A program made the translations under genes and the position numbers. Source: an uncultured bacterium (lineage in GTDB: Bacteria > Acidobacteriota > Thermoanaerobaculia > Thermoanaerobaculales > Thermoanaerobaculaceae). From it: a stretch of 64,000 nucleotides of DNA. How positions within the stretch are numbered: position 1 is the first letter of the stretch; each line of letters starts with the position of its first letter. The stretch is from the NCBI GenBank assembly GCA_937924755.1, contig CALEVZ010000001.1:1-64000 (forward strand), in the 5' to 3' direction. Below the pieces are notes generated by a model. That model was not told the DNA's origin and made no database searches. It saw only the letters and a list, made by a program, of their open reading frames with translations. Shown here piece by piece: positions 6,297-24,205 of the stretch.

Positions 6297-6432
6297 CTGG
6301 CACGGACACGGACACCGGGCACGGTCACGGACACCGTCACCGACCCGGAAACGGGCACCGTTCCAGCCGGCAAAAAAGCATACCGACCGTGAGGGCGGGC
6401 CAGAGGCCCGCGCAGCAGCACGGTCACGGTCA
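6297..6432. repeat. Intergenic hexamer/hairpin repeat, copy A
   Basis: Between the LOV-phosphatase start and the cusA end lies a stretch of CACGGA/CACGGT-type hexamers (6301-6360). A conserved core CCGACCGTGAGGGCGGGCC follows, with a perfect 7-bp hairpin GCGGGCC-AGA-GGCCCGC (6395-6411), then more hexamers. The same layout recurs near 17.6 and 25.2 kb. It could act as a terminator-like or REP-like element; the function is unknown. Confidence 0.8.
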
Positions 6433-9400
6433 CTGGCCCCGGTCGCCGGTCCTCCCCGAGGCACTCCGGCGGACGAGGCGCTCCGCCCACCAGCAGTAGA
6501 GCACCGGCACGGTGAACATGGTGAGCAGCGCCCAGCTCATCCCCCCCACGGTGGGGATGGCCATGGGGATCATCACGTCGCTGCCCCGCCCGGTGGAGGC
6601 GAGGACCGGCAGCAGGGCCAGGATCGTGGTGGCCGAGGTCATGAGGGCCGGGCGCACCCGGCGGGAGCTGGCAAAGATCACCTCGCAGCGAATGCGTTCC
6701 ACCGTGTCCGGGCGCACCTCCACGAAACGCTGCCGCAAGTAGGTGGCCATCAGCACCCCATCGTCCACGGCAATGCCAAACAGGGCCAGGAAGCCCACCC
6801 ACACTGCCACCGATAGGTTGACCGGGTGGAACTGAAAGATTTCCCGCAGGTTGGCCCCCATGAGGGTGATATCGGCAAACCACGGCTGGGCAACAAGGTA
6901 AATCATCACGAAGCCCCCCGCCCAGGCCACGGCGATGCCGGCAAAGATGAACAGGGTAGTGGCCAGAGAGCGGAACTGAAAGTACAGGATCAACAATATG
7001 ATGAAGAGTGCCAGAGGGAGTACCAGGCGCAAGGTAGCGGCGGCCCGCAGCTGGTTCTCGTACGCCCCGGAGAAGCGCCAGCTCACCCCCGGTGGTACCG
7101 GCAGTTCCCCCGACCGCACCTGGGCCTCCAACGCCGCCCGGGCAGCTTCCACCACCTCCACCTCCGCCAGCCCCGGCTGGCCGCCGAAGGTGATGTAGGC
7201 GGTGAGGAAGGTGTCCTCGCTGCGGATCATGTCCGGCCCCCGTACGTAGGCAATTTCGGCCAGTTGCCCCAGGCGCACCTGTGCGCCATCCCTGCCCGCC
7301 ACCAGCACCCGCTCCAAGGTCTCCAGGTCCCCCCGCCGCTCCCGGGGGTAGCGCACCCGCACCGGGTAACGCTCCCGTCCCTCCACCGCGGTGGTAACCG
7401 CCAGCCCCCCCACGGCGGCGGCCACCGCCCGCTGCACCTCGGCGGCGTTGAGGCCGTGACGGGCGATGGCCCGGCGGTCCACGCGGACCTCCAGGTAGGG
7501 CTTGCCCATCACCCGCTCGGCGTTGACCGTCTCCGGCCGCACCACCGGCACCTTCTTGAGGGCCAGCTCCAGGTCCACCGCCATGCGATCCAGAGTCGCC
7601 AGATCGGCGGCGCGCAACTTGAGCCCCATGGGGGCCCGCATCCCGGTTTGCAGCATCACCTGCCGGGTCTCGATCGGCTGCAGTTTGGGGGCGGAGGTGG
7701 TGCCGGGCATGGCCGCCGCGGCGGAAATCTCCTCCCAGATGTCCTGGGGGGAACGGATGTGATCCCGCCACTGCCGGAAGGGGCGCCCGCGAGAATCGGG
7801 AATGAGGCGGCCCTCGGCGTCCCGCAGGAACTCCCCGCGGCGGCGGTCGTAGCGGAAGGTGAGCCGCCGCCCGGTCTCGTCGGTGAGGTATTCGCTCTTG
7901 TAGGTGATCAACGTTTCGATCATGTTGACGGGAGCCGGGTCCAGGGCGGTTTCGGCCCGCCCCAGCTTACCCACCACCATCTCCACCTCCGGGATGGCGG
8001 CAATGGCCCGATCCTGATGCTGCAGCACCTCCAGCACCTCCCCCAGGGAGGCGTGGGGCATGGTGGTGGGCATCCACAAAAACGACCCCTCGTCCAGGGG
8101 AGGCATGAACTCCCGCCCCAGCCCGGGGAGGTGGTGCACCGCCCATACCCACGGCACACTGGTGCGCAGCGCCTGGCCGGGCAGTCCCAGCCGCTCCAGT
8201 CCCGCTGGCACGAAGCCGAAGAGACGGCCGAACCCCAGCCAGATGGTGGAGCCCAGCACCACCAGCAGGGCGGGCACGGCCAGGAAGACCCCCTTGTGGG
8301 CCAGGCACCACCCCAGCAGGGCGGGGTAGGCCCGTTGCACCGCCAGGAACAGGCCCAAAAGCCCACCCACCAGCAGCACCACAAAGAGAGCGTTGCGCAT
8401 CGCCCCCTGCTCCGGCCCCAGGGGCTCCCAAACCCGGGCCAAGACTACCGCCACGGCCAGCGCCGCCAGCAAGGAGACCGCGCGGGGCCCTCCCAACCAT
8501 ACCGGCAGGCGGGGGCGCACCAGGCCCAGCGCCGTCCCGACCAGGACCACCAGTGCCGCCGCCGTCACCCCCCTCCACCCCTGGAGGACGGCCACCCCCA
8601 GCAGCGCGGCGCCGCCCACCATGACCCCCAGGCGTCCCCACCGCCCAGCCCCCGGGGCGTCCAGCCGGGGCGCCACCACCGCCTGGAGCAGCGTCGGTAC
8701 CACAGCGACGGCCAGAATCACCGCCGCCAGGAGTACGAAAGTCTTGGTGAAAGCCAGGGGAGTGAACATCTTTCCCTCCGCCCCGGTCATGGTGAAGACA
8801 GGCAAGAACCCCACCACCGTGGTGGCGATGGCGGCCAGCACCGCTGAAGCTACCTCCCCCACGGCTCGCCGCACCACCACCGCCCGGGGCTGCCCCGGCG
8901 GAGCTTCGCCCAGGTGTCTCAACACGTTTTCGGTGATGATGATCCCCATGTCCACCAGGGTGCCGACGGCAATGGCGATCCCCGCCAAGGCCACCACGTT
9001 GGCCTCCACCCCGGCGAGCTTCATGGCGATGAAGGCCCCCAGCACCGACAGAGGCAGGGTGGCGCTGATCAACGCCGCCGCCCGCAGGTGTGTCACCATC
9101 ACCACCACCACCAGGACGGTGATGAGGATCTGCTGCACCAAAGCGTCGCTCAAGGTGGCCAGCGTCTCCCGGATCAGTCCGGTGCGGTCGTAGAAGGGGA
9201 CCACGGTGAGTTGACTCGCGGTCATCCACTCGGGCCAGGCCGCGCGGGGGTTGGCGCGCAGCCAGCTCACCCACCCGTCGTGGTTGAGCCGACCGCCGCT
9301 GAAGGCGGCAAAGCCATGGGCGGCGGCAAAGGCCTCCACCCGCCCCCGGTCGGTGCGGGTCCAGTCCACCACCGCCCGGGCCGGCAGGCCCGGCGCCAGC

Positions 9401-10419
9401 TCGGCGAGGACGGCCTTGACACTCTGGATGGTGGTGAGCGGGTTGGCCCCTTCGCGCACGATCACCACCCCACCAACCGCCTCACTGCCCGCCACGGTGA
9501 GCGCCCCCCGGCGGGGGGCGGGGCCCAGCCGCACCGCCGCCACGTCGCTCACCCGGATGGGCACCCCCCGCGGGCCCAGCTTGACCACCGCGTGCTCCAG
9601 GTCCCCCGCCCCAGCTATGAGACCCCGGCCACGCACCACGTACTCCACCCGATTCTCCTCCAGCACCCCCGCTCCCACGTCCAGGTTGGAGTTCTCCACC
9701 GCTTCCAGCACCTCTTCCAGGGTGACCCCGTACACCGCCAAAGCGTCGGGATCCACCTCCACCTGGTACTCGCGCACGTAGCCGCCAATGGATGCCACCT
9801 CCGCCACGCCCTCGGCAGCCAGCAGTGCCGGGCGCAGGTAGAAGTCCTGCGTGCTCCGCAGCTCGTCCAGATCCCACCCCCCCACCGGACGCCCCTGGGG
9901 GTCCCGCCCTTCCAGGGTGTACCAGAACACCTGCCCTAGGGCGGTGGCGTCGGGCCCCAGGGTCGGCACGGCATCGGCGGGCAGCAGCCCCGGCGGCAGG
10001 GAGTTGAGCTTCTCCAGAATGCGCCCGCGAGCCCAGTAGAACTCCGTGTCCTCGTCGAAGACCAGGAACACCATGGAAAAGCCGAACATGGAGGTGGAGC
10101 GCACCTCCTTCACCCCAGCCACCCCCATGAGTGCAGCACTCAAGGGGTAGGTCACCTGCGCCTCCACGTCCTGAGGGGAACGGCCGGGCCACTCGGTGAG
10201 GACGATCTGCTGGTTCTCCCCCAGATTGGGGATGGCGTCCACCGGCACCGGCCGGCGCAAAAGCAGCTGAGTGTCCCAGTCGAAGGGGGCCACCGCCAAC
10301 CCCCAACCCACCAGGGTGGCCAGCAGTAGCGCCACCACCAGGGGGTTGGCCAGGAAGAAACCTATCACCCTGTCCATGGGCGACGGGGGCGGCGACGGGG
10401 AGGGGGGCGGGGCGCTCAT
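6430..10419 (-). CDS. cusA: Copper/silver efflux RND pump CusA
   Basis: 1329-residue inner-membrane heavy-metal RND transporter. Seen: N-terminal helix after MDRVIGFFLANPL, the heavy-metal motif GTLVDMGIIITENV in TM4, REFMPPLDEGSFLWMP at the start of the second half, GMRAPMGLKL and the C-terminal FGIAVDDGVLMATYL. It would expel Cu+ or Ag+ through CusB and CusC. It is roughly 280 residues longer than E. coli CusA; the extra length lies mainly in a Leu/Val-rich block after TM6 (about nt 8310-8650) and a short insert near nt 9200-9350. The ATG at 10419 overlaps the cusB stop (ATGA), which fixes the start; the frame is open further upstream but that is cusB coding sequence. Confidence 0.93.
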   Translation of the reverse strand: MSAPPPSPSPPPSPMDRVIGFFLANPLVVALLLATLVGWGLAVAPFDWDTQLLLRRPVPVDAIPNLGENQQIVLTEWPGRSPQDVEAQVTYPLSAALMGVAGVKEVRSTSMFGFSMVFLVFDEDTEFYWARGRILEKLNSLPPGLLPADAVPTLGPDATALGQVFWYTLEGRDPQGRPVGGWDLDELRSTQDFYLRPALLAAEGVAEVASIGGYVREYQVEVDPDALAVYGVTLEEVLEAVENSNLDVGAGVLEENRVEYVVRGRGLIAGAGDLEHAVVKLGPRGVPIRVSDVAAVRLGPAPRRGALTVAGSEAVGGVVIVREGANPLTTIQSVKAVLAELAPGLPARAVVDWTRTDRGRVEAFAAAHGFAAFSGGRLNHDGWVSWLRANPRAAWPEWMTASQLTVVPFYDRTGLIRETLATLSDALVQQILITVLVVVVMVTHLRAAALISATLPLSVLGAFIAMKLAGVEANVVALAGIAIAVGTLVDMGIIITENVLRHLGEAPPGQPRAVVVRRAVGEVASAVLAAIATTVVGFLPVFTMTGAEGKMFTPLAFTKTFVLLAAVILAVAVVPTLLQAVVAPRLDAPGAGRWGRLGVMVGGAALLGVAVLQGWRGVTAAALVVLVGTALGLVRPRLPVWLGGPRAVSLLAALAVAVVLARVWEPLGPEQGAMRNALFVVLLVGGLLGLFLAVQRAYPALLGWCLAHKGVFLAVPALLVVLGSTIWLGFGRLFGFVPAGLERLGLPGQALRTSVPWVWAVHHLPGLGREFMPPLDEGSFLWMPTTMPHASLGEVLEVLQHQDRAIAAIPEVEMVVGKLGRAETALDPAPVNMIETLITYKSEYLTDETGRRLTFRYDRRRGEFLRDAEGRLIPDSRGRPFRQWRDHIRSPQDIWEEISAAAAMPGTTSAPKLQPIETRQVMLQTGMRAPMGLKLRAADLATLDRMAVDLELALKKVPVVRPETVNAERVMGKPYLEVRVDRRAIARHGLNAAEVQRAVAAAVGGLAVTTAVEGRERYPVRVRYPRERRGDLETLERVLVAGRDGAQVRLGQLAEIAYVRGPDMIRSEDTFLTAYITFGGQPGLAEVEVVEAARAALEAQVRSGELPVPPGVSWRFSGAYENQLRAAATLRLVLPLALFIILLILYFQFRSLATTLFIFAGIAVAWAGGFVMIYLVAQPWFADITLMGANLREIFQFHPVNLSVAVWVGFLALFGIAVDDGVLMATYLRQRFVEVRPDTVERIRCEVIFASSRRVRPALMTSATTILALLPVLASTGRGSDVMIPMAIPTVGGMSWALLTMFTVPVLYCWWAERLVRRSASGRTGDRGQ

Positions 10420-12248
10420 GGCCGCACCTCCCGGGCCCCGGCGGCGGTGTCCGTCGCGATGGTCTCGGAAATCTCGCCGCAGGAGTACATGCGGGCGCCG
10501 TGGTAGGGGTTGGTGATGGGCCTGTCCGCCTGCAGCCAATAGGCCCGGCGCCCCTGCACCATGGGGCAGACGGCGCGGTACACCGGCCCCTCGGTCCCCG
10601 GCCCGAAGCGCCGCACCGCGTCGGTCAGGGCGTCGGAAAAGACCTCGAAGTGCCGCCGCATGGCCTCCAGCTCCCGCTCCGCCGCGAGACCTGCGAGCCC
10701 CGCCCGCAGGCGGGCCGCCAGCGGCCGCCACAGGTCGGCGGTGACTCCCGCCGGCACCCTGCGGTCCACCCCTGCCAGCGCTTCCTGCAGCGCCAGGGCG
10801 GCAGCGCCGGCGGCGGCGGGGTCGTCGTCAGAGAGTGCTTTGACCAGGCGGAAGTTCCCCTCCACGAGGGAAGCCAGAGAGAGGCCCGCCACCGCCGCGG
10901 GCGGGGTTGTCTGGCCCACCGCCGGCGCACCCCCCTTTCGGCCGGCCATCATGCTGGGGCGACCTCGGATCTGCAGCTCACTGTCTAGCTTAAAGTTACC
11001 TCGCACCACCACGAGTTCACCGGCGGTAAGCCCCTCCCGTACTACCACCTCGTCCCCGGCGCGGGGGCCGAGAATTACTTCCCGGGCATCGAAGGTGGGT
11101 AACCGTGGGTCGGACTGCACGTACACCACCGCCCGGCGGCCGGTGATGAGCGCCGCCGAAAGGGGAATGACCAGCTCCTCCTCCGCCTCGGTAGGGGGAA
11201 GCAGCCGGGCGGTGACGAACATCCCGGGTTTGAGCCGCCGCCCGGAGTTGGCCGCCTCCACCCTCACCCCCACCGTCCGGCGGCTCTCCTCAACCACTGG
11301 CTCCAGCAGGGCCACCCGCCCGTCGAGGTGTTCTCCGGGCAGCCCGGCGGCGGCGATGCGCACCTCCACCCCCGGCCGCACCCACGCCAGGTCCCGCTCG
11401 TGCACCTCCAGCCGTACCCACACCCGCCCCAGGTCCGCCACGGTGAACAGCCGCTCTCCCCGCTCCACCACCATTCCTTCGGTGGCCTCCCGCTCCAGCA
11501 CCACCCCCTCGGCGGGCGACATCAGGGTGACGCGGTCTTCCAACGTGCCCCGCGTCTCCAGTGCCTCCACCTGCTCGGCGGTCATCCCCAGCAGGCGCAG
11601 CTTGTCCCGGGCCGCCGCCAGCAGCGCCTCCGCCCCCGCTCGGTGCGAGGGCGCGGCAGACTCCGGCAGGCGGGTCATAGCCCCCTGGGCCTGCAGCAGC
11701 TCCTCCTGGGCCGCCACCAGGGCGGGGGAATAGATCTCTACCAGCGGCTGCCCCGCCTGCACCGCCACGCCAGTCTGGTTCACATGGAGTTTCTCCAACC
11801 GGCCGCCCACCCAGGCGGTGATGTGGTGCAGCCGCCGGGAGTCCACCTCCACGGTGCCGTATACCTCCAGAGCGGTACGCACCGCCCGGCGCTGCACCGG
11901 GGCCGTCTCCACCTGAGCCAGCGCCAGCGCTCGGGGGGAGAGCGTCAGGCGGGGCAGGCCCGCCTCCCCCTCCCCCTGGCCGTCCCCGGGGACCGGGATG
12001 AGATCCATCCCGCAAAGGGGACATTTCTCTTTGGGATCACGGCTGCGCACCTGCGGGTGCATGGAGCAGGTGTACAGCCGGTCGCTCCCCACCTCTGCGG
12101 CGGCGGCCATGGGGGGAGCGGGCTCCCGCCCACCCCCTGGCCGCGTGGCTCGCCCCAGCCAGAAACCGACCAGCAGCAGCGCCACCGCTGCCCCGATCGC
12201 TAATTTCCACCGCCGCCCCCCCGTCCCGCCCGCGGCTCGCTCACTCAT
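10416..12248 (-). CDS. cusB: Cu/Ag efflux periplasmic adaptor CusB with metal-binding and DUF3347-like domains
   Basis: 610 residues. After an N-terminal membrane anchor comes a heavy-metal-binding segment YTCSMHPQV...CPLCGMDL, then the membrane-fusion core (biotinyl-lipoyl, beta-barrel: GGRLEKLHVNQTG, ADLGRVWVRLEVHERDL). A C-terminal domain with CPMVQ, YWLQADRPITNPYHGARM and SCGEI resembles DUF3347 domains found fused to CusB in other phyla. It links CusA to the outer-membrane channel and probably hands Cu+ to the pump through its Met/Cys sites. ATG 12248 overlaps the end of cusC by 8 bp; an alternative GTG start at 12278 exists. Confidence 0.9.
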   Translation of the reverse strand: MSERAAGGTGGRRWKLAIGAAVALLLVGFWLGRATRPGGGREPAPPMAAAAEVGSDRLYTCSMHPQVRSRDPKEKCPLCGMDLIPVPGDGQGEGEAGLPRLTLSPRALALAQVETAPVQRRAVRTALEVYGTVEVDSRRLHHITAWVGGRLEKLHVNQTGVAVQAGQPLVEIYSPALVAAQEELLQAQGAMTRLPESAAPSHRAGAEALLAAARDKLRLLGMTAEQVEALETRGTLEDRVTLMSPAEGVVLEREATEGMVVERGERLFTVADLGRVWVRLEVHERDLAWVRPGVEVRIAAAGLPGEHLDGRVALLEPVVEESRRTVGVRVEAANSGRRLKPGMFVTARLLPPTEAEEELVIPLSAALITGRRAVVYVQSDPRLPTFDAREVILGPRAGDEVVVREGLTAGELVVVRGNFKLDSELQIRGRPSMMAGRKGGAPAVGQTTPPAAVAGLSLASLVEGNFRLVKALSDDDPAAAGAAALALQEALAGVDRRVPAGVTADLWRPLAARLRAGLAGLAAERELEAMRRHFEVFSDALTDAVRRFGPGTEGPVYRAVCPMVQGRRAYWLQADRPITNPYHGARMYSCGEISETIATDTAAGAREVRP

Positions 12249-13497
12249 GCCCCACCTGCCTTTCTCCTTCCGGCCCACCGGCCAGCCGTTCCAGCTCCGC
12301 CCAAGCGCCGACAGCGTCGGCCCGGGCCCGCGCCAGGGCCAGGCGCAGCTCCTGGCCCAGCCGGGCGGTTTCCAAAAGGTCGGCGAAGCTGACTTCGCCC
12401 GCGCGGTAGGCTGCGGTCATGGCTGTCACCGCCTGCTCCGCCTGGGGCAGCAGCCGGTCGGCGATGAGCCCCCCCTTGCGCCGGGCGTCGGCCAGGCGAA
12501 AGTCGGCCAGCCGCGCTCCTGCCGCCACCTCCAGCGCTTTGGCTCTCACCTCTGCGGCTGCCGCCTCGGCCTTGGCCGCCGCCTCCACCACCTCGTTGCG
12601 GCAGCAGTCCCGCCAGATGGGCAGGTTGATCCCCGCCATCACCCCCACTCCGCTACGCCGCATCTCCCTGTTGTGCGTCACCTCGAACCCCAGGGTGAGA
12701 TCCGGCACGCGGATCAGGCGAGCCAGCTCCAGCCGCCGGGCCGCCGCCTCCTGCTGACGAGCCAGGGCTTCGAGCTCCGGGTTGGCCGCCTCGGCCTCCA
12801 GTTCCCCCTTAAAGACCGGATCAGGCAGCTCCGTCGGCGGCGGCAGGGGTTCCCTCACTTCCCGCCCGAGGGCGGCGTTGAGGCGAGCGGCGGCCGCCGG
12901 GAGCAGCTCCTCCAGGGTACGTACCTCATCCTCCGCCCGCCCCACCTCCACCTGAGCCCGCACGACATCGGCGAAGGGGGCCAGCGCGGTGCGGTAGCGG
13001 GCCCGGGCCACCCCCTCGAGTTGCTGCACCAGCTCAAGCTGCGCCATGGCCACGACGCGGGCCTGGTGCAGGTACCACCACTCGGCAAAGGCCGCCGTGG
13101 CCTCGGCCACTACCTCCCGGGCGGCGGCCGCCGCCACGGCCTGCGCGGCCGCTGCCTCGGCCGACGCCGCCGCCGCCCGCAACCCCCGCTTGCCCGCCAA
13201 GGGGAACGACTGCGACACCCCGACCCCCACCTCCCGCTCCATGGAGCGCAGGGACACCCCCAGCATGGGGTCGGGGGGGGTGCGGGCCGGCACTACGCGG
13301 GCCTCGGCGGCAGCCCAAGTGGCGCGAGCGGCGGTCAAGCGGGGGTGATGCGCCCGGGCATGAGCTCTCACCCCCTCCAGGGTGGCCAGAGCGTCGCGGG
13401 GCGCCGCCGTGGCGCTCGCCGCCGTCAGAGCGAGACACGTCACAAGCATGAGGTGCTTACCTCCTGCGGCGATTCGAACTGTCTTATGGGTCACCAT
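12241..13497 (-). CDS. Outer-membrane efflux protein, CusC/TolC-like
   Basis: 418 residues with a signal peptide (LMLVTCLALTAASATAAP) and two long Ala-rich helical halves typical of OEP/TolC proteins: HPRLTAARATWAAAEARV, SQSFPLAGKRGLRAAAA, and the repeat-half PDLTLGFEVTHN, INLPIWRD. It would form the outer-membrane duct of the tripartite Cu/Ag efflux pump with CusB and CusA encoded just downstream. GGAGG lies about 10 nt before the ATG. No lipobox was seen, unlike E. coli CusC. Confidence 0.88.
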   Translation of the reverse strand: MVTHKTVRIAAGGKHLMLVTCLALTAASATAAPRDALATLEGVRAHARAHHPRLTAARATWAAAEARVVPARTPPDPMLGVSLRSMEREVGVGVSQSFPLAGKRGLRAAAASAEAAAAQAVAAAAAREVVAEATAAFAEWWYLHQARVVAMAQLELVQQLEGVARARYRTALAPFADVVRAQVEVGRAEDEVRTLEELLPAAAARLNAALGREVREPLPPPTELPDPVFKGELEAEAANPELEALARQQEAAARRLELARLIRVPDLTLGFEVTHNREMRRSGVGVMAGINLPIWRDCCRNEVVEAAAKAEAAAAEVRAKALEVAAGARLADFRLADARRKGGLIADRLLPQAEQAVTAMTAAYRAGEVSFADLLETARLGQELRLALARARADAVGAWAELERLAGGPEGERQVGHE

Positions 13498-14311: not shown

Positions 14312-15604
14312 TCAATGGGCGGCGAGAATGGTGCGCCCGATAGCGATGTTCTCGCGATGGCCGGTGAAGCGAGCGGTGACTTTGCCGCGCAGCGGATACC
14401 CCAGCAGGTAGAGGTCGCCGATGATGTCGAGGATCTTGTGACGCACGAACTCGTCCGGCCAACGCAGCTCGGTGTTGATGATGTTGTCCTCCCCCACCAG
14501 GATGAAGTTGTCGAGCCGCCCACCCGCCCCCAATCCAAGCTCGCTGAGCATCTTGAGGTCGCGCATGAAACCGAACGTGCGGGCTGGCGCGATCTCCTCG
14601 CGGTACGCCTCGGGGCCGGTGAGGACGAAGTGAAAGAACTGCTCACCGATGGGCGGCGGGTAGCGGAGGTGATAAGACACCTCCAGGCGCTCCGCCGGTT
14701 CGATAACCAGCAGCTTTTCCCCCACTCCCTCGAGGGCGTAGCGACGGTCGATCACCACCTCTCGCCGCGGGGCATCCTGGTCCACCAGGCCGATCTCCTC
14801 CAATTTGCGCACCAGCTCCACCGCCGACCCGTCCAGCGCCGGAATCTCCCCGTGCACCTTGACCAGCAGGTTGGTCACCCCGAGGGCATGCAGCGCCGAC
14901 AGCAGGTGCTCCACCGTACGGATCTCCTCCCCTTCGCGGGTCAACGTCGTGGCGTACTCGGTCTCCCCGACGGCGCTCAAGTGGGCCGGGATGGCGGTGC
15001 CCGTGGGCAGGGTGAGAAAGTGCACGCCCCTGCCCGGCGGCAGGGGCCGCAGCGCCATGCCGGTGCGGGTCCCCGAGTGCAGGCCGTGCCCGTAGATAAC
15101 CCCGGGGGCGGCGATGGTGCGCTGGGGCAGCTCGGTCTCTTTCACGATGGGCAACAGTGGTGGTGCGGCAAAGGGGCGCTCCAGCTCCTCCCGTTCCGCC
15201 CCAATCTCGAGAAACGCCGTGCTCAGCGGTCGCGGCGCGGAAAGGTCGGCGAGCGCCGCGCGCAGCGTCTCCACCGTGCGATCGTACGAGAGGGGCTTCT
15301 CCAGGTAATCGAAGGCGCCCATCTTGATGGCCTTGACCGCGGTACGGGTGGTGCCGTGCCCGGAAATCATGATGACCCTGGCCTCGGGGTCGAGCTCCCG
15401 GATGGCCGCCAGTGCCTCCAATCCATCGCGGTCGGGCAGCCACACGTCCAGAAAAACCGCCGCCGGCCGCCGGCGCCGGTACAGCTCCAGGGCCTCCTCG
15501 CCGCTGCCCGTGGCGATCGTCTCGAACCCCTCGTCCTCGAGGATGTGGGACAGGGTGGTGAGGATTCCCGGCTCGTCGTCGACGATGAGGATCAGCTCTC
15601 TCAT
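14312..15604 (-). CDS. lpxC: Response-regulator receiver domain fused to LpxC deacetylase
   Basis: 430 residues. Residues 1-120 are a complete receiver domain of NtrX/NtrC flavour: acidic pair Asp9-Asp10, phospho-acceptor Asp53 in FLDVWLPDRDG, Ser81 in MISGHG and Lys103 in YLEKPLS. Residues 160-430 are a full LpxC, the zinc UDP-3-O-acyl-GlcNAc deacetylase that commits lipid A synthesis: GHGLHSG, TVEHLLSALHALG (Glu232, zinc ligand His233), EIPALDGSA, RTFGFMRDL, FVRHKILDIIGDLYLLG (zinc ligands His389 and Asp393) and catalytic His416 in FTGHREN. All catalytic residues are present in both parts. The ATG at 15604 starts directly at the receiver strand; frame upstream is non-coding. Phosphorylation could gate lipid A production. 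No histidine kinase gene is adjacent. Confidence 0.92.
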   Translation of the reverse strand: MRELILIVDDEPGILTTLSHILEDEGFETIATGSGEEALELYRRRRPAAVFLDVWLPDRDGLEALAAIRELDPEARVIMISGHGTTRTAVKAIKMGAFDYLEKPLSYDRTVETLRAALADLSAPRPLSTAFLEIGAEREELERPFAAPPLLPIVKETELPQRTIAAPGVIYGHGLHSGTRTGMALRPLPPGRGVHFLTLPTGTAIPAHLSAVGETEYATTLTREGEEIRTVEHLLSALHALGVTNLLVKVHGEIPALDGSAVELVRKLEEIGLVDQDAPRREVVIDRRYALEGVGEKLLVIEPAERLEVSYHLRYPPPIGEQFFHFVLTGPEAYREEIAPARTFGFMRDLKMLSELGLGAGGRLDNFILVGEDNIINTELRWPDEFVRHKILDIIGDLYLLGYPLRGKVTARFTGHRENIAIGRTILAAH

Positions 15605-15719: not shown

Positions 15720-17495
15720 ATGAACGCCCGTACCATCATCGACCTGTACCGCGCCAGCATCGCCACGCCGCGGGAGGAGTACGCCACCCACTACCTGCCG
15801 GGGGTCTCCCGCCCCTTCTCCACCCAGGAGTTCCACCAGCGCACGGTGGCCCTTGCCGCCCGCCTGCCCGACCTGGGAGTGAAGCGGGGCGACCGGGTCC
15901 TGCTCCTCTGCGAGAACCGGCCCGAATGGCACATCATCGACGTCGCCACTCTCGCCGTCGGCGCCGTCAACGTCCCCGTCTACCCGACCCTGACCGCCGC
16001 CCAGCTCGCCTATCAGCTGCGCGACTCCGGCGCGATCGTGGCGATCGTGGAAAACGCCGAGCAAATGCAGAAGTTCCTCGCCATCCATGCCGACTGCCCC
16101 GATCTCAAGCACCTCATCCAGATCGAGGGGGCTTGTGCACCCGGGGTGCACAGCCTGGCGGAGATCATCGCCGCCGGGCAGGGGCCGCGGGCCGAGGACG
16201 CCTTCTGGGCCGCCGCCGCGGCCATCGACGAGGACGACCTGGCCACCATCGTCTACACCTCCGGCACCACCGGCGAGCCGAAGGGTGTGATGCTCACCCA
16301 CCGCAACTTCGTCTCCAACGCCCTGCACATCCTGCCCCGCCTGCCGGTCACCGCCGACGACCTGGCGCTGGAGTTCTTGCCGCTGTGCCACGTCTTCGAA
16401 CGGTGCGCCGGCTACCTGTACTTCGCGGTGGCCGCCCGCCGCGCCTACTGCACCGTGGCCACGGTGGGCGAGCTGCTGACGACGATTCGCCCCACCGCCT
16501 TCTGCTCCGTGCCCCGAGTGTTTGAGAAGGTGTACGACCGCGTGCACTCCCGCGTCGCCACGGCGCCAACGTTGCGCCGCAAGCTCTTTCACTGGGCGCT
16601 GGAGGTCGGCCAGCAGGCCTCCCGCCACCGCCTCGCCGGCACACCCATGCCGGCCGGGCTGCGGCTTCGCCACCGGCTCGCCGACGCCCTGGTGCTCAAG
16701 AAGATCCGCGCCGCCTTGGGCGGTCGCGTCAAGGGCATTATTTCCGGGGCCGCGCCGCTGCCCCTGTACGCCAACGAGTTCTTCCACGCCGCCGGCATCC
16801 CCGTGCAGGAGGGGTATGGCCTCACCGAAACTTCCCCGGCCATCGCCGTCAACGGCTATCTGCCGGGCACCAACCGCCTGGGTTCCGTCGGCCGGGCGCT
16901 GGATAATCTCGAGGTCAAGCTGGCCGCGGACGGAGAACTCCTGGTGCGCGGCCCCAGCGTGGCCAAGGGGTACTGGAATAAGCCCGAGGCCACCGTCGAG
17001 GTGTTTGATCCCGACGGCTTCTTCCACACCGGTGACATCGCCCGCATCGACGAGGACGGGTTCATCTACATCACCGACCGCAAGAAGGACATCATCGTCA
17101 CGGCGGGGGGCAAGAACGTCGCCCCCCAGCCCATCGAGAACCGCCTCAAGCAATCGCCCTGGGTGGACAACGCCGTGCTCATCGGGGATCGTCGCCCCTT
17201 CATCGTCGCCCTCTTCTCGCCCAATCTTGAGGCACTGGCCGCCTTCGCCCGCGACGAGGGCCTGCCCGCGGCCGACGTCGGCACCCTGGTGACCTGCCCG
17301 GAGGTGATCGCCCTTTACGACGCGGTGGTCCAGGAGGTCAACCAGGACCTGGCGCGCTACGAACAGATCCGCAAATTCCGCGTGCTGCCGGTGCAGCTCT
17401 CCATCGAGAGCGGACACCTCACCCCCACCGTCAAGATTAAGCGCCGCGTGGTGGAAAAGGATTTCGCCAACCTCATCGAGGAGATGTACTCGTAG
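15720..17495 (+). CDS. fadD: Long-chain acyl-CoA synthetase (AMP-forming)
   Basis: 591 residues, ANL superfamily. The ATP/AMP motif YTSGTTGEPKGVMLTHRNF, the adenylate motif GYGLTETSPA, and the hinge region TGDIARIDEDGFIYITDRKKDIIVTAGGKNV with the catalytic C-terminal Lys region (TVKIKRRVVEKDF) are all present. It activates fatty acids to acyl-CoA at the inner membrane for beta-oxidation or lipid remodelling. ATG 15720 has GGGAGG/GGGAGA just upstream; a -10-like TATGCT lies at 15659-15664. It is divergent from the receiver-LpxC gene, which may be coincidental or link lipid supply with lipid A control. Confidence 0.9.
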   Translation: MNARTIIDLYRASIATPREEYATHYLPGVSRPFSTQEFHQRTVALAARLPDLGVKRGDRVLLLCENRPEWHIIDVATLAVGAVNVPVYPTLTAAQLAYQLRDSGAIVAIVENAEQMQKFLAIHADCPDLKHLIQIEGACAPGVHSLAEIIAAGQGPRAEDAFWAAAAAIDEDDLATIVYTSGTTGEPKGVMLTHRNFVSNALHILPRLPVTADDLALEFLPLCHVFERCAGYLYFAVAARRAYCTVATVGELLTTIRPTAFCSVPRVFEKVYDRVHSRVATAPTLRRKLFHWALEVGQQASRHRLAGTPMPAGLRLRHRLADALVLKKIRAALGGRVKGIISGAAPLPLYANEFFHAAGIPVQEGYGLTETSPAIAVNGYLPGTNRLGSVGRALDNLEVKLAADGELLVRGPSVAKGYWNKPEATVEVFDPDGFFHTGDIARIDEDGFIYITDRKKDIIVTAGGKNVAPQPIENRLKQSPWVDNAVLIGDRRPFIVALFSPNLEALAAFARDEGLPAADVGTLVTCPEVIALYDAVVQEVNQDLARYEQIRKFRVLPVQLSIESGHLTPTVKIKRRVVEKDFANLIEEMYS

Positions 17496-17774: not shown

Positions 17775-20477
17775 TCAGAACGGGTTGCCCAGGGAGAAAA
17801 AGAGCTCGCCGGCACTCTCTCCGGCCTTGCGATCCAACTTCCACCCGTACTCCAGCCGGATGGGTCCCACCGGGGTCTCGAAGCGCAGCCCCACCCCAGC
17901 ACCCCAGCGCATATCATCGAGGTCCACCTGATTACGCCCAGCCCAGACGTTGCCGCCATCCACGAAGAGGTTGAAACCCACCACTCCGGTCAGCCGCCGC
18001 CGCCACTCCAGATTGGCCAGCAGCAGGGCCGCCCCGCCCACCGGCTTGCCCTGAGCGTCCAGCGTCTGGCCCGGCACTCCCAGGCGGTCGAGGGCGAAGG
18101 CGCGGTGGGAGACCTGCCCGCCGGCGAAGAAACGCACGTTGATGGGCAGGAGCAGGTTGTCGGCGGTGCTGTCGGCGCCGTGCCGCGGCACGGCGACTCC
18201 GGCCCGCAGGGCGCCCGCCAACGTCCCGCGCGACACCGGACGATAGCCGGCCACCGACAGGTTGAGCTTGTCGAAGTTGGCGTCGGCCAGGAACACCTTG
18301 AAGGCGCTCTGCAGCTCTGCCCGCGCCAGCACCCCGCGGCGCGGGCTGAACAGGTCATCGCGGCTGTCCCACACCACGTAAGGAATCACCGATGCGATTT
18401 TCAGGCTCTGCTTCTCGCGCTCCAGACCGGAGAGGATTTCGGGCGGCGCCTCCGGGTCCACGATCTGGTAGTCGTAGCGCACCATCAACCGACCCGGGCG
18501 GCGCTCCCGGTCCCCCATCTCCAGCCACATCCCCCGTTCCAGCAGGCTAAACGTGTCGAAGTTGGCGTCATACCGATAGATGGACAGCCACAGGGGAACT
18601 CCGAAGAGGCCCAGGGGGCTGGGCTCCCGGTAGGTGAGCTGCAACCGCTTGCGGCGCCCAGAGTAGCTCCCCTCGGTAAACAGCGCCCCACCCGTGCCCA
18701 GCGGGTTCAGGTGCGACCACGACGCCGACGCTCGCAGCCCCGCCTCGGTGTCCCAGCCGAGGCCGAAGCCGTAGGCGCGCAGGGGGGCTTCCTTGAGGTC
18801 GATGACCATGCCCCGCCGCGGCCGCTGCTCCTGTCCCGGGATCGGGCGCACTGCCGCGCTCTGGAAGATGCCCGGGCTGAGCAAGCGCCGCTGGGTCTCC
18901 AGCTGCTGCGCCGCCCCCAGGGGCTCACCCACCTTCAAGGTGGAAAGGCGATGCACCACCCTTTCGGAGGTGTGCACCAGCCCGGCCACCACCACCCTGT
19001 CCAGTACCACCAACAGACCGGGGGTGACCACTATCCGCACGGCGCACGTGTCGGCCTCACACTCGCTGCTCACGGCCGCCCGAGCATCCAGGTACCCGGC
19101 ATTGCGCAGGGCCCCCTCCAGCAACGCCCGCGACTCCTCCTCCCCGGTGCGGCTCCACGGACCGCCGCGAACCAGGGGCAAGGGGGGCAGCGCGACCCCC
19201 TCCAGCATGCCCTCGACGACCACCTCGGAGACCGTCCTGCGAGTCCCCATGGTGACGGGGAAGGTGACGATCACCCCGCCGTCAGCACGCTCCAGGCGCG
19301 GCGCCTCCACCCGAGCCTCGGCCCACCCCTCCCGTTGCAGCACGGTCAAGATAGAAAGCCGATCCCACTCCAGCGTCTCGGAGGTAACCGGCTCGCGCCC
19401 CCACACCCAGGGCCGGCCGCGACGGGCGCCGATCTTCTCGCGCAACGCCTCGGCGGCAACGCCGCTCAGACCCTCGAACTGTACCTCCCTGATGGGACGC
19501 TTCTCCGTCCCGGTCACAGCGATGCGTAGGACGCGCTCCTCTGGTTCCGCGATCACCTCCCCGCTCACCGTCGCCAGGAGCCGACCCTCCTCCTGGCAGT
19601 GCAGCGAAAGGCGGTTCAGAACCGACTCCAGGTCCGACTCCTCGAACGGCTCGCCGCCACGCACGAAGGGCAGCGCCGCCTCCAGCAACGCCTTGCCGGG
19701 TTTCAGGCCGGCCAGCTCCAGGCGATAACGGGGGCCGCGGTCCACCTCGAGAACGACCACCGTTCCATCATCGCCGGATGCAACACGGGGAAGACGCACG
19801 TCCGCCGACCACCACCCCTGCCGCCGCAGGTAGGCGGCCAGGCGCCGGCGGCCTCGCTCCAGGCGCTCGTCCGAGAGAATGACTCCCGTCCGCAAGCCGC
19901 TGATTTCCTGCAGCTTCTGGCCAGACAAAGCAGTCGATGGTGCCACCAGGCGAGCGAGAACGAGGGGAGCGCCCAGGTGGGCGACCACCCGAATCCCCAC
20001 CGCCGTGCCCCCCGGGGCCGGCTCCTGCTGCACCTCCAGCCGGGCGTCGGGATACCCCGCGGCGCGCACCACCCGGCGGGCCTCGGCCAGCGCCCCCTCC
20101 AGCGCCCCCTGATCCAGCACCGCCCCCGCTCTCAGGTCCAGTAACCCCTCCACCCGCCGCCGGAGCGACCCGGGCAGCCCCTCGACGCGCACCTCGGCCA
20201 CCCGCTGTGCGGGCGTCACCTCCACCTCCAGCACCACGCCCGCCGCAGTCATGTCGGCGCGCACCACCGCATCCACGAACTCGCCGGAGGCGAGCAGCGC
20301 CTGCACCCCCTCGCGCACGTCGGTGCGCGTGACCAGCTGACCAGGGGTGAGAGCCAGCAACTTCTCGGCCCGCCGGCTGAACTCGGCGGGAGCCACGACG
20401 CGCACATCATGCAAGGGGACCTGCCCCCACGGAATCGCCGCCCGCATCACGGCGAGGGCTAGTAGCGCCGTTGCCAC
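17775..20477 (-). CDS. Omp85-family outer-membrane assembly protein (TamA/BamA-like)
   Basis: 900 residues. A short hydrophobic leader is followed by several POTRA-like repeats (about residues 20-500; for example VAEVRVEGLPGSLRRRVEGLL and VSEVVVEGMLEGVALP). A C-terminal beta-barrel of the bacterial surface antigen type follows, with VRFFAGG, NLFVDGGNVWAG and GLRFETPVGPIRLEYGW, ending in the aromatic C-terminus GNPF expected of outer-membrane barrels. The GTG at 20477 overlaps the end of tamB by 19 bp and has GGAGG 4 nt upstream. Pairing with tamB points to the TamA role in translocation or assembly. The POTRA region looks longer than the three domains of TamA, so a BamA-type assignment cannot be excluded. 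Confidence 0.85.
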   Translation of the reverse strand: MATALLALAVMRAAIPWGQVPLHDVRVVAPAEFSRRAEKLLALTPGQLVTRTDVREGVQALLASGEFVDAVVRADMTAAGVVLEVEVTPAQRVAEVRVEGLPGSLRRRVEGLLDLRAGAVLDQGALEGALAEARRVVRAAGYPDARLEVQQEPAPGGTAVGIRVVAHLGAPLVLARLVAPSTALSGQKLQEISGLRTGVILSDERLERGRRRLAAYLRRQGWWSADVRLPRVASGDDGTVVVLEVDRGPRYRLELAGLKPGKALLEAALPFVRGGEPFEESDLESVLNRLSLHCQEEGRLLATVSGEVIAEPEERVLRIAVTGTEKRPIREVQFEGLSGVAAEALREKIGARRGRPWVWGREPVTSETLEWDRLSILTVLQREGWAEARVEAPRLERADGGVIVTFPVTMGTRRTVSEVVVEGMLEGVALPPLPLVRGGPWSRTGEEESRALLEGALRNAGYLDARAAVSSECEADTCAVRIVVTPGLLVVLDRVVVAGLVHTSERVVHRLSTLKVGEPLGAAQQLETQRRLLSPGIFQSAAVRPIPGQEQRPRRGMVIDLKEAPLRAYGFGLGWDTEAGLRASASWSHLNPLGTGGALFTEGSYSGRRKRLQLTYREPSPLGLFGVPLWLSIYRYDANFDTFSLLERGMWLEMGDRERRPGRLMVRYDYQIVDPEAPPEILSGLEREKQSLKIASVIPYVVWDSRDDLFSPRRGVLARAELQSAFKVFLADANFDKLNLSVAGYRPVSRGTLAGALRAGVAVPRHGADSTADNLLLPINVRFFAGGQVSHRAFALDRLGVPGQTLDAQGKPVGGAALLLANLEWRRRLTGVVGFNLFVDGGNVWAGRNQVDLDDMRWGAGVGLRFETPVGPIRLEYGWKLDRKAGESAGELFFSLGNPF

Positions 20478-23400
20478 TTCACCTCCGCCCAGAAGGAGCC
20501 GTCGCTTTCCCGATTCAACTCAAAGAACACTCCGGGCGCCACTCGCCAGCGGCTCTTGACGAGATCGTCGCGGTTGGACGCCAGGTTGGTGGAGTAGGTC
20601 ACCGTCCAGGCCTGGGAGATGCGCTTGACCACGGTCACCCGCGCCGCAGGGGTGTTGGTCTCGGAGGACAGGTAGGGGTCGAGGCGGAGCTGGTCCACGT
20701 CCAGCAGAGTCCGCGCCCGCCGCGCCACCGTACCGGCGATCTGATCCGACAGGAAAGAGGTGGCGAGCGCCCCCGCCGATGTCTCCCCTCCCACTCCCGA
20801 GGGTGTCCCCAGGGCCAGGAGGGAGAGGATATCCATCTCGGTCAGGGGAGGGTTGGAGGAGAAGCTGGAGGCCAGATGATCCAGCGTTCCCTGCAAAGAG
20901 ACGCTGATGTCGATGGAGCCCACCGTAGTACGGGCGTGCACATCGAGGAACGGATCGATTCGCTCGGGATTGGAGAAGCTCACCGTCCCCCGCTCCAGCT
21001 CGTAGCGGTTGACACCTAAAGTCAGCTCTCCCCCGGGCAAGACCTCGACCCGCCCGAGCACTCCCGGTTGCGCCGAGGTACCAACCACCCGCAGATCGCC
21101 GCGCAGGCCCAAACGGGCGAGCGCCGTCTCCACCTCCAGGGTGCCCGGGATCCGCACGCCCACGTTGAGTCGCACCGCCCCCTCGCTGGTGGGCGCCGCG
21201 CGTACCGGACTCAGGAACTGCTCCAACACCAGGCGTTGCAGATCCAGATCCCGCCGGTACACCGTCGGCTGTACCTCCAGCTCGCCGGTGGCGAAGAGCT
21301 CCTCCACCGGGCCAACGAGCCGCAATTCACCGCGCAGACTGGGAGCGAGCGCCGTGGCAAGGGCGAAGCGGACATCGCTGAACTCGAGGGCAAGATCCAG
21401 CTCCACTCTAGGGTCGAGGGCAATCCTGCCGCGCGCCGCACCCTGGCCGCCGCTGTAGGCGAAGACCACGTCGTGCAAGCGTAGCGCCTCGGGCACGAAT
21501 TCGATGACGCCGTTGATCCGCGTCAGTGGTGCGGAAAGCCCCGGCACTCGCAGCGACCCATCGAACACCCGTGCTACCCCTTCAAACGAGGGGTTTCTGT
21601 CGGTCCCCAGGATGGCGCCGAGCAGCTCGAGGCGGCCGGAGGGCCGGGCTTCGGGCCACACCACCGCCATCAAGGCCGCCGGCAGTTCGCCGGCGACGTT
21701 GCCGTGTAACATGCCGTTCTCCTGCCTGCCACCGCGCACGAACAGACGTGCCGTACCCCCCTCGAAAAGCACCCCCGGGAGGTTGATCTCGCCCCCCACC
21801 ACGGTGAACGGGGCCGGTTCCGACAGGCTGGCTGATTCCCCCTCCACTAGCACGTCGAATCGGGTGAGGGTCCCATCCAGCCGGGGCGGCTGCCGCGGAG
21901 CCAGGGTGATGCGCCCACTCCCCTCCACTCGCCCCTCCACCGGCACATCCTCCTCTGCCAGATCGACCATCAGTTGCCGTAGCGACTTCACCCCGAAGGA
22001 GAACTCTCCCGCAAACCCCTGTCTGGCGCGGGACAGGTGCGCCCCCAGCGACCACACCTCCGGCCTGGCTAGGGCGATGTTGAGGCGCTGCGGGTCGAGC
22101 TCCACGAACCCCGCGGCGCCGTCTCGACTGGTCACCGCCAGCCGGCCCACCGGCTGGTCGAAGGGAAACTCCCCGCGCAGCTCGCAGTCCAGCGCCCCGC
22201 CGGCCAGTCGCGCCAGGGGCGGCCACACCGCCTCCAGGCCGAGACTCTTGAGAGACGCTTCCAGCTTAGCGCGCCGACCGAGGACATCAATGCGGGTCGA
22301 GGCGCGCAGCCCGCCGACTTCGAAATCGGCCACCGTCACGACCCCCTGTCGCACCGTCACCGCGGCACGCCCGTCGCCGAGCTGCAGCCCCGCGACCGAA
22401 ACCCCCCGCAATCGAAGGGACGCGTCGACTTCGGGGGAGGCCAGGGTGCCCGCCAGCGTCCCGCGCAGCGCCACCCGCCCGGCGAGGGGCGCATGCACCC
22501 CGGCCCAGGTCGCCACCCGGTCCACCGGGATGCCCTGACCCGAGAAGGTGAACGCCAGTCCCTCGTCGCTGCCATAGTGAAACACCCCCGACAGGGTGGC
22601 CACACCCTCCCCCACCCACACCGTGGCGTCGCTCACCTCCAGCTCGCCCTGCGCCAGGCGGAACGAACCGGCGATTCCGTCGGTGTCGATGGGACCCAGG
22701 GCCACCGGCGCCACCGCCACATCGCCCACCACCGTGGGGTTGTCGAAGGGACCGCGCAGGCGCACATCGAACACCGCCTCGCCCTGCAGATCCTGAGGCA
22801 GCACGTCCTCCCCCACCCAGCCGCGCAGCAGGGTGGCGATGACGACGAGCGGGACATGATCTCCGCGGATACTCCAGTTGGGGATCCAGCGTCCGAGCGT
22901 CAACCCTCCCTCCCACTGCACCTCAGCGCCCGCAACGGTCACCCCCGAGGTACTGATACGCAGCACCCCATCGCGGGCCAATCGCAGCAGCACCCTCCCC
23001 GCCGCCGGCGCCTCGCCCCCCCGCGGACGCAGATCCACCACCGCCGCGCCGCTGCCCTCGCCAACGCGCTCCCCGTCCCACGACAGGTTGGCCGTCAGGG
23101 CGCAGGCCGCCGCCAACCCGGCAGGTTCCACGTCGATGGTGCGCAAGAACCCGGCCAGGTCCAGCCCCGTGCCCCGTGCCGCCACCCGATGCCGCCAGGG
23201 CGGGCGAAAACCTTCCAGAACGTATGAGCCCTCCACCGCCCCCCCGGCGAAGGTGCCTCGAGCCAGCGACGCCTCCAGCCCGTCGTTGGTGATATGCGCC
23301 TCTGCCTCCACATCGTGGAAGGCGAAGCCAACCACCTCCACCAGCTCGCCGCTCGCCCGGGCATCAATGACAAACTGGTCGCCGGTCAGCGTGGCCTCCC

Positions 23401-24205
23401 CCGCAACCCGCACCGCTCCTGCCAGATCGGCCTCCACGTGCAAGAGTCGATCCAGCTCCGCGAGCGAAACCTCGGCCACGCCTTCGGCGCGCAGGGTGCG
23501 ACCGCCGAGCGTCCCCTTCGCCTCCAGGCGGCCCCACGAACCCGAGGCGACCAGGCGCGCCACCTCGAAACCCCGGGGGGTTAGTTTCCCTCGCGCCTGT
23601 ACGGCTGCCGCCACGGGCTCGATTCCCGGCGCCGTGAGGGAAACCGTGCCGGCGTGCAGGACCACCGCCTCCAGGGGGGTGCGGCGGGAGCCGGTCCAGC
23701 GCACCTCCAGATTGCGCGCCGCCAGACTCATCCCCTCCCCCAGCGTCAGAGTATCGATCCGAGCCTCGGTCAACTCCAGCTGACGCACCACTACCCGCAC
23801 CCACCCCCCCTCACCCTGCCCAGTCCCGAAGCTGGGCAGCTTTTCCCCCCGCAGCCGCAAGCCCTTAAGGCGGAGCTGGTTGATGACCACCTCCCGCTCG
23901 GCCACCAGTACGCGGCCCAGACCAACCTCCACCAGGCCGACGTGCAACAGGGGCTCGGCCGGGGCGCCCAGGCGCACATCCCGCAGGGTCAGGCGAGGCG
24001 GGTACAACGTGATCTCGAGGTCGGCCACATCCACGGATTGACCCAGGGCGACGGCGAGCTGCGCCGACAGTCGCGCCGCCGCCCAACCCCGCACCCCCGG
24101 CTGCTGCACGAACCAGCCCATCGCCGTCAGCAGCAGCACCCAGGCCAGGCCGAGGGCGGCTAACGCGATGACCGTGCGCACTAGATGGGGACGCCTGCGG
24201 CCCAC
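20459..24205 (-). CDS. tamB: TamB-like translocation/assembly module protein
   Basis: 1248 residues. An N-terminal membrane anchor (TVIALAALGLAWVLLLTAMGW) is followed by a long beta-rich AsmA/TamB-type body with repeating LTLRDVRLG-like strands. The conserved C-terminal DUF490 part includes FSNPERIDPFLDVHART, LEVQPTVYRRDL, and LTEMDILSLLALG. TamB-type proteins bridge inner and outer membrane in the periplasm, and are linked to lipid transport and outer-membrane protein assembly. GTG 24205 starts 1 base before the nadK stop codon region (24207), with GGGAGAGCTGAG upstream; its 3' end overlaps the Omp85 gene, so nadK-tamB-Omp85 is probably one operon. Confidence 0.88.
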   Translation of the reverse strand: MGRRRPHLVRTVIALAALGLAWVLLLTAMGWFVQQPGVRGWAAARLSAQLAVALGQSVDVADLEITLYPPRLTLRDVRLGAPAEPLLHVGLVEVGLGRVLVAEREVVINQLRLKGLRLRGEKLPSFGTGQGEGGWVRVVVRQLELTEARIDTLTLGEGMSLAARNLEVRWTGSRRTPLEAVVLHAGTVSLTAPGIEPVAAAVQARGKLTPRGFEVARLVASGSWGRLEAKGTLGGRTLRAEGVAEVSLAELDRLLHVEADLAGAVRVAGEATLTGDQFVIDARASGELVEVVGFAFHDVEAEAHITNDGLEASLARGTFAGGAVEGSYVLEGFRPPWRHRVAARGTGLDLAGFLRTIDVEPAGLAAACALTANLSWDGERVGEGSGAAVVDLRPRGGEAPAAGRVLLRLARDGVLRISTSGVTVAGAEVQWEGGLTLGRWIPNWSIRGDHVPLVVIATLLRGWVGEDVLPQDLQGEAVFDVRLRGPFDNPTVVGDVAVAPVALGPIDTDGIAGSFRLAQGELEVSDATVWVGEGVATLSGVFHYGSDEGLAFTFSGQGIPVDRVATWAGVHAPLAGRVALRGTLAGTLASPEVDASLRLRGVSVAGLQLGDGRAAVTVRQGVVTVADFEVGGLRASTRIDVLGRRAKLEASLKSLGLEAVWPPLARLAGGALDCELRGEFPFDQPVGRLAVTSRDGAAGFVELDPQRLNIALARPEVWSLGAHLSRARQGFAGEFSFGVKSLRQLMVDLAEEDVPVEGRVEGSGRITLAPRQPPRLDGTLTRFDVLVEGESASLSEPAPFTVVGGEINLPGVLFEGGTARLFVRGGRQENGMLHGNVAGELPAALMAVVWPEARPSGRLELLGAILGTDRNPSFEGVARVFDGSLRVPGLSAPLTRINGVIEFVPEALRLHDVVFAYSGGQGAARGRIALDPRVELDLALEFSDVRFALATALAPSLRGELRLVGPVEELFATGELEVQPTVYRRDLDLQRLVLEQFLSPVRAAPTSEGAVRLNVGVRIPGTLEVETALARLGLRGDLRVVGTSAQPGVLGRVEVLPGGELTLGVNRYELERGTVSFSNPERIDPFLDVHARTTVGSIDISVSLQGTLDHLASSFSSNPPLTEMDILSLLALGTPSGVGGETSAGALATSFLSDQIAGTVARRARTLLDVDQLRLDPYLSSETNTPAARVTVVKRISQAWTVTYSTNLASNRDDLVKSRWRVAPGVFFELNRESDGSFWAEVKWQRRY

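Follow-up and report, generated by a model that had tools for sequence, protein, structure and literature searches.

The question raised by this locus is whether a sensory kinase could act directly on LpxC, the enzyme by which lipid A synthesis is limited. To our knowledge, the known controls of LpxC are proteolysis, adaptor proteins, and transcription. In the window, i.e. the entire stretch of 64,000 nt that was analyzed, an LpxC domain is encoded behind a receiver domain in a single uninterrupted frame of 430 residues without internal stop codons (14312-15604, minus strand). The features of this gene are:

14312..15604, minus strand: receiver-LpxC fusion gene, 430 aa, ATG at 15604
15263..15592, minus strand: receiver domain, residues 5-114, NtrX-like (PF00072, trees)
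15575-15580, minus strand: receiver D9/D10, invariant in 48/48 fusions
15446-15448, minus strand: candidate phospho-acceptor D53 of the receiver, invariant in 48/48 fusions
15362-15364, minus strand: receiver S81, invariant in 48/48 fusions
15296-15298, minus strand: receiver K103, invariant in 48/48 fusions
15125..15262, minus strand: inter-domain linker, residues 115-160 (alignment of 27 fusions)
14324..15124, minus strand: LpxC domain, residues 161-427 (PF03331, TIGR00325)
14906-14911, minus strand: LpxC E232/H233, invariant
14438-14440, minus strand: LpxC H389, invariant
14426-14428, minus strand: LpxC D393, invariant
14357-14359, minus strand: LpxC H416, invariant

Both domains were matched over nearly the entire length of their Pfam profiles. 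The receiver (Response_reg, PF00072) spans residues 5-114 and scored 100 bits against a cut-off of 30, and the LpxC domain (PF03331) spans residues 161-427 and scored 265 bits against a cut-off of 27. In addition, the fusion exceeded the equivalog cut-off of the NCBIfam lpxC model TIGR00325 (221 versus 187 bits), and the solved structures of the Pseudomonas and Aquifex LpxC could be aligned along the entire LpxC domain. Based on spacing and structure alignment, we take residues E232, H233, T343, and H389 of the fusion to be equivalent to E78, H79, T191, and H238 of Aquifex LpxC, and K390, D393, D397, and H416 presumably correspond to K239, D242, D246, and H265. The preliminary description of this DNA had reported a complete receiver with Asp53, Ser81, and Lys103, followed by a complete LpxC with all zinc and catalytic residues. 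The three receiver residues were indeed present, D9/D10 were additionally found alongside D53 in the acidic pocket, and all eight LpxC residues were located within full matches to PF03331 and TIGR00325.

Among the response regulator models of NCBIfam, that of NtrX was the best match to the fused receiver, with 106 bits against a whole-protein cut-off of 600. The sigma-54 AAA+ and DNA-binding domains of NtrX are absent from the fusion according to Pfam, with LpxC in their place, and therefore the fusion was not classed as an NtrX. In an alignment of 27 fusions, the linker was the least conserved segment, variable in both length and sequence, apart from its end, where a short proline-rich stretch is conserved (P149, L151); the C-terminal residues were variable as well. 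An AlphaFold model of the fusion, calculated from a 9-row alignment, had a mean pLDDT of 53 and was too poor for use.

The fusion was the sole LpxC found in the source assembly (3.35 Mb, 96.9% complete), and LpxB and LpxK are also encoded in this genome. The sole-copy status and the presence of LpxB and LpxK together imply that the fusion would be active as a deacetylase on UDP-3-O-acyl-GlcNAc, and hence it is expected to be a working enzyme. The preliminary description had envisaged a second, stand-alone LpxC next to an inactive fused copy; no second LpxC was found in the source genome. The fusion resembles other proteins of the LpxC family (PF03331, TIGR00325) in its full domain, its zinc and catalytic residues, and its occurrence as the sole copy together with LpxB and LpxK, and it differs from stand-alone LpxC by an additional N-terminal receiver plus linker of about 160 residues.

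Several other genes were noted in the window. About 2 kb from the fusion, outer-membrane assembly genes encode an Omp85/POTRA protein followed by TamB (17775-24205, minus strand). A gene for a long-chain acyl-CoA synthetase (15720-17495, plus strand) is divergent from the fusion gene, with about 115 bp between the two starts, and a second, similar acyl-CoA synthetase gene adjoins an orphan kinase gene at G000:C1:74.7-78 kb (L172). A heavy-metal type RND efflux set is encoded at 6430-13497 on the minus strand and comprises an AcrB-family pump, a CusB-like membrane fusion protein with an HMBD domain, and an outer-membrane channel.

The preliminary description had suggested a search for the same fusion in relatives, and the fusion turned out to be widespread with conserved residues. 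The full-length fusion was present in 65 genomes from about a dozen families and two classes of Acidobacteriota. Based on a profile built on 27 fusions and applied to Acidobacteriota genomes, it was found in 58 of the 149 genomes of the source class, with four more copies cut at contig ends, and, outside of this class, in seven genomes of one divergent family (f38). D9, D10, D53, S81, and K103 of the receiver and E232, H233, T343, H389, K390, D393, D397, and H416 of LpxC were identical in 48 of 48 aligned fusions, f38 included. An assembly chimera could be ruled out, because the fusion recurs with conserved residues in 65 genomes. Most carriers had no other LpxC, one genus (g2) had both the fusion and a stand-alone LpxC, and other genera and families had the stand-alone LpxC only.

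Eight named public records also encode the fusion, with 63-68% identity, seven of them labelled Acidobacteria (Holophagales, Thermoanaerobaculia) and one labelled Myxococcales. The fusion of the Myxococcales-labelled contig (L008) had its closest counterpart in an Acidobacteria record (L006), and either a mislabelled genome, contamination or transfer would account for this. Apparent fusions in Geobacteraceae, Bacteroidales, and Melioribacteraceae, which had appeared as long partial matches, were ordinary sigma-54 regulators, and no relative of the fusion was found in viral contigs. The genes adjoining the fusion differed among the carriers, and none of these neighbors encoded a kinase. In a few genomes (L148, L149, L004, L009) the fusion was adjoined by glycogen genes, by sequence a branching enzyme, a GH57-type enzyme, and a glycogen synthase, an arrangement that was not conserved across carriers.

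Phylogenetic trees were used to analyze the origin of the fusion. In quick trees of the LpxC domain, calculated without outgroup LpxC from other phyla, all fusions formed one clade with 100% support, separate from the 76 stand-alone Acidobacteriota sequences sampled. In receiver trees, which were based on 122 columns, all fused receivers likewise formed one clade with 95-99% support. Both trees are consistent with one ancient origin of the fusion. The clade of fused receivers adjoined the receivers of operon-encoded NtrX proteins, with 80% support in one tree and 56% in the other. With support that is moderate in one tree and weak in the other, an NtrX ancestry of the fused receiver is likely but not proven.

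An orphan NtrY-like kinase had been proposed in the preliminary description as an object of search. All kinases and receivers of the source genome were listed, and the kinases without an adjoining receiver were examined. Such an NtrY-like orphan kinase is encoded at G000:C28:165487-167592. It has a transmembrane region, as judged from the sequence, as well as HAMP, HisKA, and HATPase domains, and a match to PAS was weak (19.8 bits, below the cut-off of 23.1). A DUF4390 gene is located upstream. Further orphan kinase genes are found at C5:18309, C1:77667, C5:121697, and C19:19753. Genome context makes NtrY the candidate kinase for the fusion. Among the points against this pairing are that no kinase gene lies beside the fusion and that other orphan kinases exist in the genome.

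A class-wide search with NtrY revealed that, in genomes with a stand-alone LpxC, ntrY is located a short way downstream of lpxC. From 90 ntrY loci, the ancestral gene order was deduced to be lpxC - DUF4390 gene - ntrY - ntrX. The DUF4390 match in the operon exceeds the Pfam cut-off, and the NtrX of the operon is a full sigma-54 regulator. This operon is widespread in the class (L194, L253-L271) and represents a physical link between LpxC and NtrYX; in those alphaproteobacteria in which NtrYX has an effect on lpxC, the link is transcriptional.

The fusion-only lineages differed markedly from this arrangement. In stand-alone genomes, 27 of 29 loci had lpxC upstream of ntrY at a distance of at most 1.5 kb, and 25 of the 28 loci with enough sequence had ntrX immediately downstream of ntrY; in two of these genomes (G067 and G478) ntrX was located elsewhere. 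In contrast, neither lpxC nor ntrX was present beside ntrY in any of 50 loci from fusion-only lineages, 44 of which have more than 900 bp of downstream sequence and nine of which stem from incomplete genomes that belong to fusion-bearing groups and yielded no lpxC. A DUF4390 match was retained near ntrY in about 42 of the 50 loci. Because the two lost genes flank ntrY on opposite sides, one deletion cannot explain the pattern. The kinase itself has remained intact: the phospho-acceptor H495, N611 of the N-box, and D639, G641, and G643 of the G-box were identical in 50 of 50 fusion-only NtrY proteins. This conservation indicates that the orphan NtrY is under selection and would thus be in need of another target. 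In our view, the strongest evidence for the proposed direct control of LpxC is that lpxC and ntrX have both disappeared from the operon; neither the operon nor this loss was part of the preliminary description.

In the source genome, the best match to NtrX (4.9e-112) was a distant paralogue and no NtrX orthologue was found, and the best matches in fusion-only relatives of the source order (about 1e-104 to 1e-117) also represented a distant paralogue, whereas the complete NtrX genes of operon-bearing relatives in the order yielded values of 1e-178 to 1e-290. Genomes of family f11, an exception, carry the fusion, an orphan ntrY apart from it and, away from ntrY, an NtrX-like gene; the NtrY of f11 may therefore still have a transcription factor as partner. 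The NtrX-like sigma-54 regulators of this family (L302, L303, L304) are 54-56% identical and have no ntrY beside them.

Intermediate states were also found. Genus g2 has retained the entire operon and carries the fusion elsewhere in the genome. Genus g4 has kept ntrY and ntrX, and its old lpxC lacks the RTFGF and HKxxD motifs and the last catalytic His, all of which are kept in the g4 fusion; in this genus it is thus the stand-alone copy that has decayed, not the fusion. In two genomes, a second, catalytically degenerate LpxC-like frame lies upstream of ntrY (L192/L161 in G411, L160/L193 in G368). It has kept the EH motif but lost the RTFGF and HKxxD motifs and the last catalytic His, and it could be a pseudoenzyme or a gene in decay. 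In the divergent family f38, ntrY has neither ntrX nor lpxC beside it. Seven changes are needed to place the fusion-only state on the NtrY tree, and four of these are forced by well-supported branches. The loci are related, and in the four independent pairs, which are too few for significance, loss of ntrX went along with the fusion-only state in a mean of 3.7 of 4 and in the opposite direction in 0. The proposed association is founded on its consistency over lineages, the intermediate states, and the known biology taken together.

What is known about NtrYX and lpxC in other bacteria is compatible with such a connection. In R. sphaeroides, NtrYX lowers the lpxC transcript level, which rises 8.8-fold in the mutant with an increase in LPS (PMC7240162). 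In C. crescentus, lpxC is repressed by NtrYX (reviewed in PMC12444477), and in D. vulgaris it is controlled by DVU2934 (PMC3333781). In these three species control is transcriptional, whereas in the fusion the regulation would be exerted on the enzyme itself. A DUF4390 protein of Bordetella, PlrP, adjusts how the NtrY homologue balances kinase against phosphatase activity (PMC13001219). The Acidobacteriota loci resemble this PlrP-PlrSR system in having a DUF4390 gene before ntrY and intact catalytic residues of the kinase. Like NtrYX systems with a DUF4390 partner, the ancestral operon has an ntrX of the sigma-54 type; the fusion-only locus differs in that ntrX is missing and the proposed partner, the receiver-LpxC fusion, is encoded elsewhere.

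Taken together, we consider it probable that NtrY phosphorylates the LpxC fusion itself and thereby controls the enzyme directly. Together with a periplasmic DUF4390 partner, the membrane-bound NtrY would phosphorylate D53 of the fusion, and the phosphorylated receiver would alter the activity or stability of LpxC via domain repositioning or dimerization. The envelope state would thereby set how much lipid A is made, with no transcriptional step in between, and an envelope sensor that once acted on LPS synthesis through NtrX would now act on LpxC directly. With somewhat less assurance, we favor the wider formulation that a sensory histidine kinase directly phosphorylates the enzyme catalyzing the committed, normally essential step in lipid A synthesis, and that one gene fusion rewired a two-component system formerly acting via a transcription factor and turned a biosynthetic enzyme into a response regulator. 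As NtrYX represses lpxC in alphaproteobacteria, our guess leans slightly towards phosphorylation lowering the LpxC output. The direct two-component control of LpxC that the preliminary description had raised as a different route from proteolysis thus stands as the best reading of the genomic data, to which the conservation of the fusion in relatives and the orphan NtrY-like kinase have been added.

Four other explanations were weighed. Phosphorylation might govern the stability of LpxC and not its catalysis, so that the receiver would be a switchable tag for degradation or localization, equivalent to control by FtsH in E. coli. The E. coli LpxC is controlled by proteolysis (PMC6339880), and with C-termini that vary among the fusions, the receiver would be the most evident candidate for a control element. 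We regard this as a tentative possibility that overlaps with the preferred explanation, which covers activity or stability; a degron or an adaptor was not found in the fusion system, and the present evidence fits activity control equally well. It appears unlikely that the receiver obtains its phosphate from acetyl phosphate or from some kinase different from NtrY, with the loss of ntrX beside ntrY being a separate event. The invariant receiver residues, the further orphan kinases of the source genome, and the small number of independent state changes would all agree with it; yet wherever a genome has no LpxC besides the fusion, lpxC and ntrX are both missing from the flanks of an intact ntrY, across several lineages, and the nearest receiver models and tree neighbors are those of NtrX.

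Some receivers function without phosphorylation, and the variable linker would suit a receiver that is a fixed module for dimerization or targeting. This is quite improbable, since D9, D10, D53, S81, and K103 are invariant in 48 diverse fusions and unused sites normally decay. Even less credence is given to a reversed flow of information, in which the fusion would serve NtrY as a sink for phosphate or a reporter of status while LpxC activity stays unaffected. A sink would be possible in genus g2, where NtrX, NtrY, the stand-alone LpxC, and the fusion occur together. In contrast, the fusion-only loci lack NtrX and no NtrX orthologue was found in fusion-only genomes of the source order, and therefore a sink would have nothing downstream to signal to. 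Direct phosphorylation of the fusion by NtrY remains our preferred explanation.

Response regulators with enzymatic outputs include CheB, diguanylate cyclases, and HD-GYP regulators. In these, as in the fusion, a receiver is joined to an enzyme domain, but their enzymes make or remove signals, whereas LpxC is an essential enzyme of structural lipid biosynthesis. The principle of an enzymatic response regulator is thus already known, and what is new is LpxC as the putative output together with the retention of NtrY and the loss of NtrX. No report of a receiver-LpxC fusion was found in the open-access literature searched, and a word search of a 2025 review on lipid A regulation (PMC12444477) gave no mention of a receiver, a response regulator or a fusion. 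The architecture may already have an uncommented entry in protein databases such as InterPro.

If the proposal is true, LpxC as a response regulator would rapidly and directly connect an envelope sensor with the lipid output of the outer membrane. It would also be one of the few instances in which a two-component system targets an enzyme of structural biosynthesis. The gene histories, with the intact operon, both forms, the decaying operon, and the fusion only, constitute a natural experiment through which the rewiring of a signaling pathway can be dated and tested. As a kinase and its proposed substrate can be named, the prediction can be checked by standard phosphotransfer and LpxC assays.
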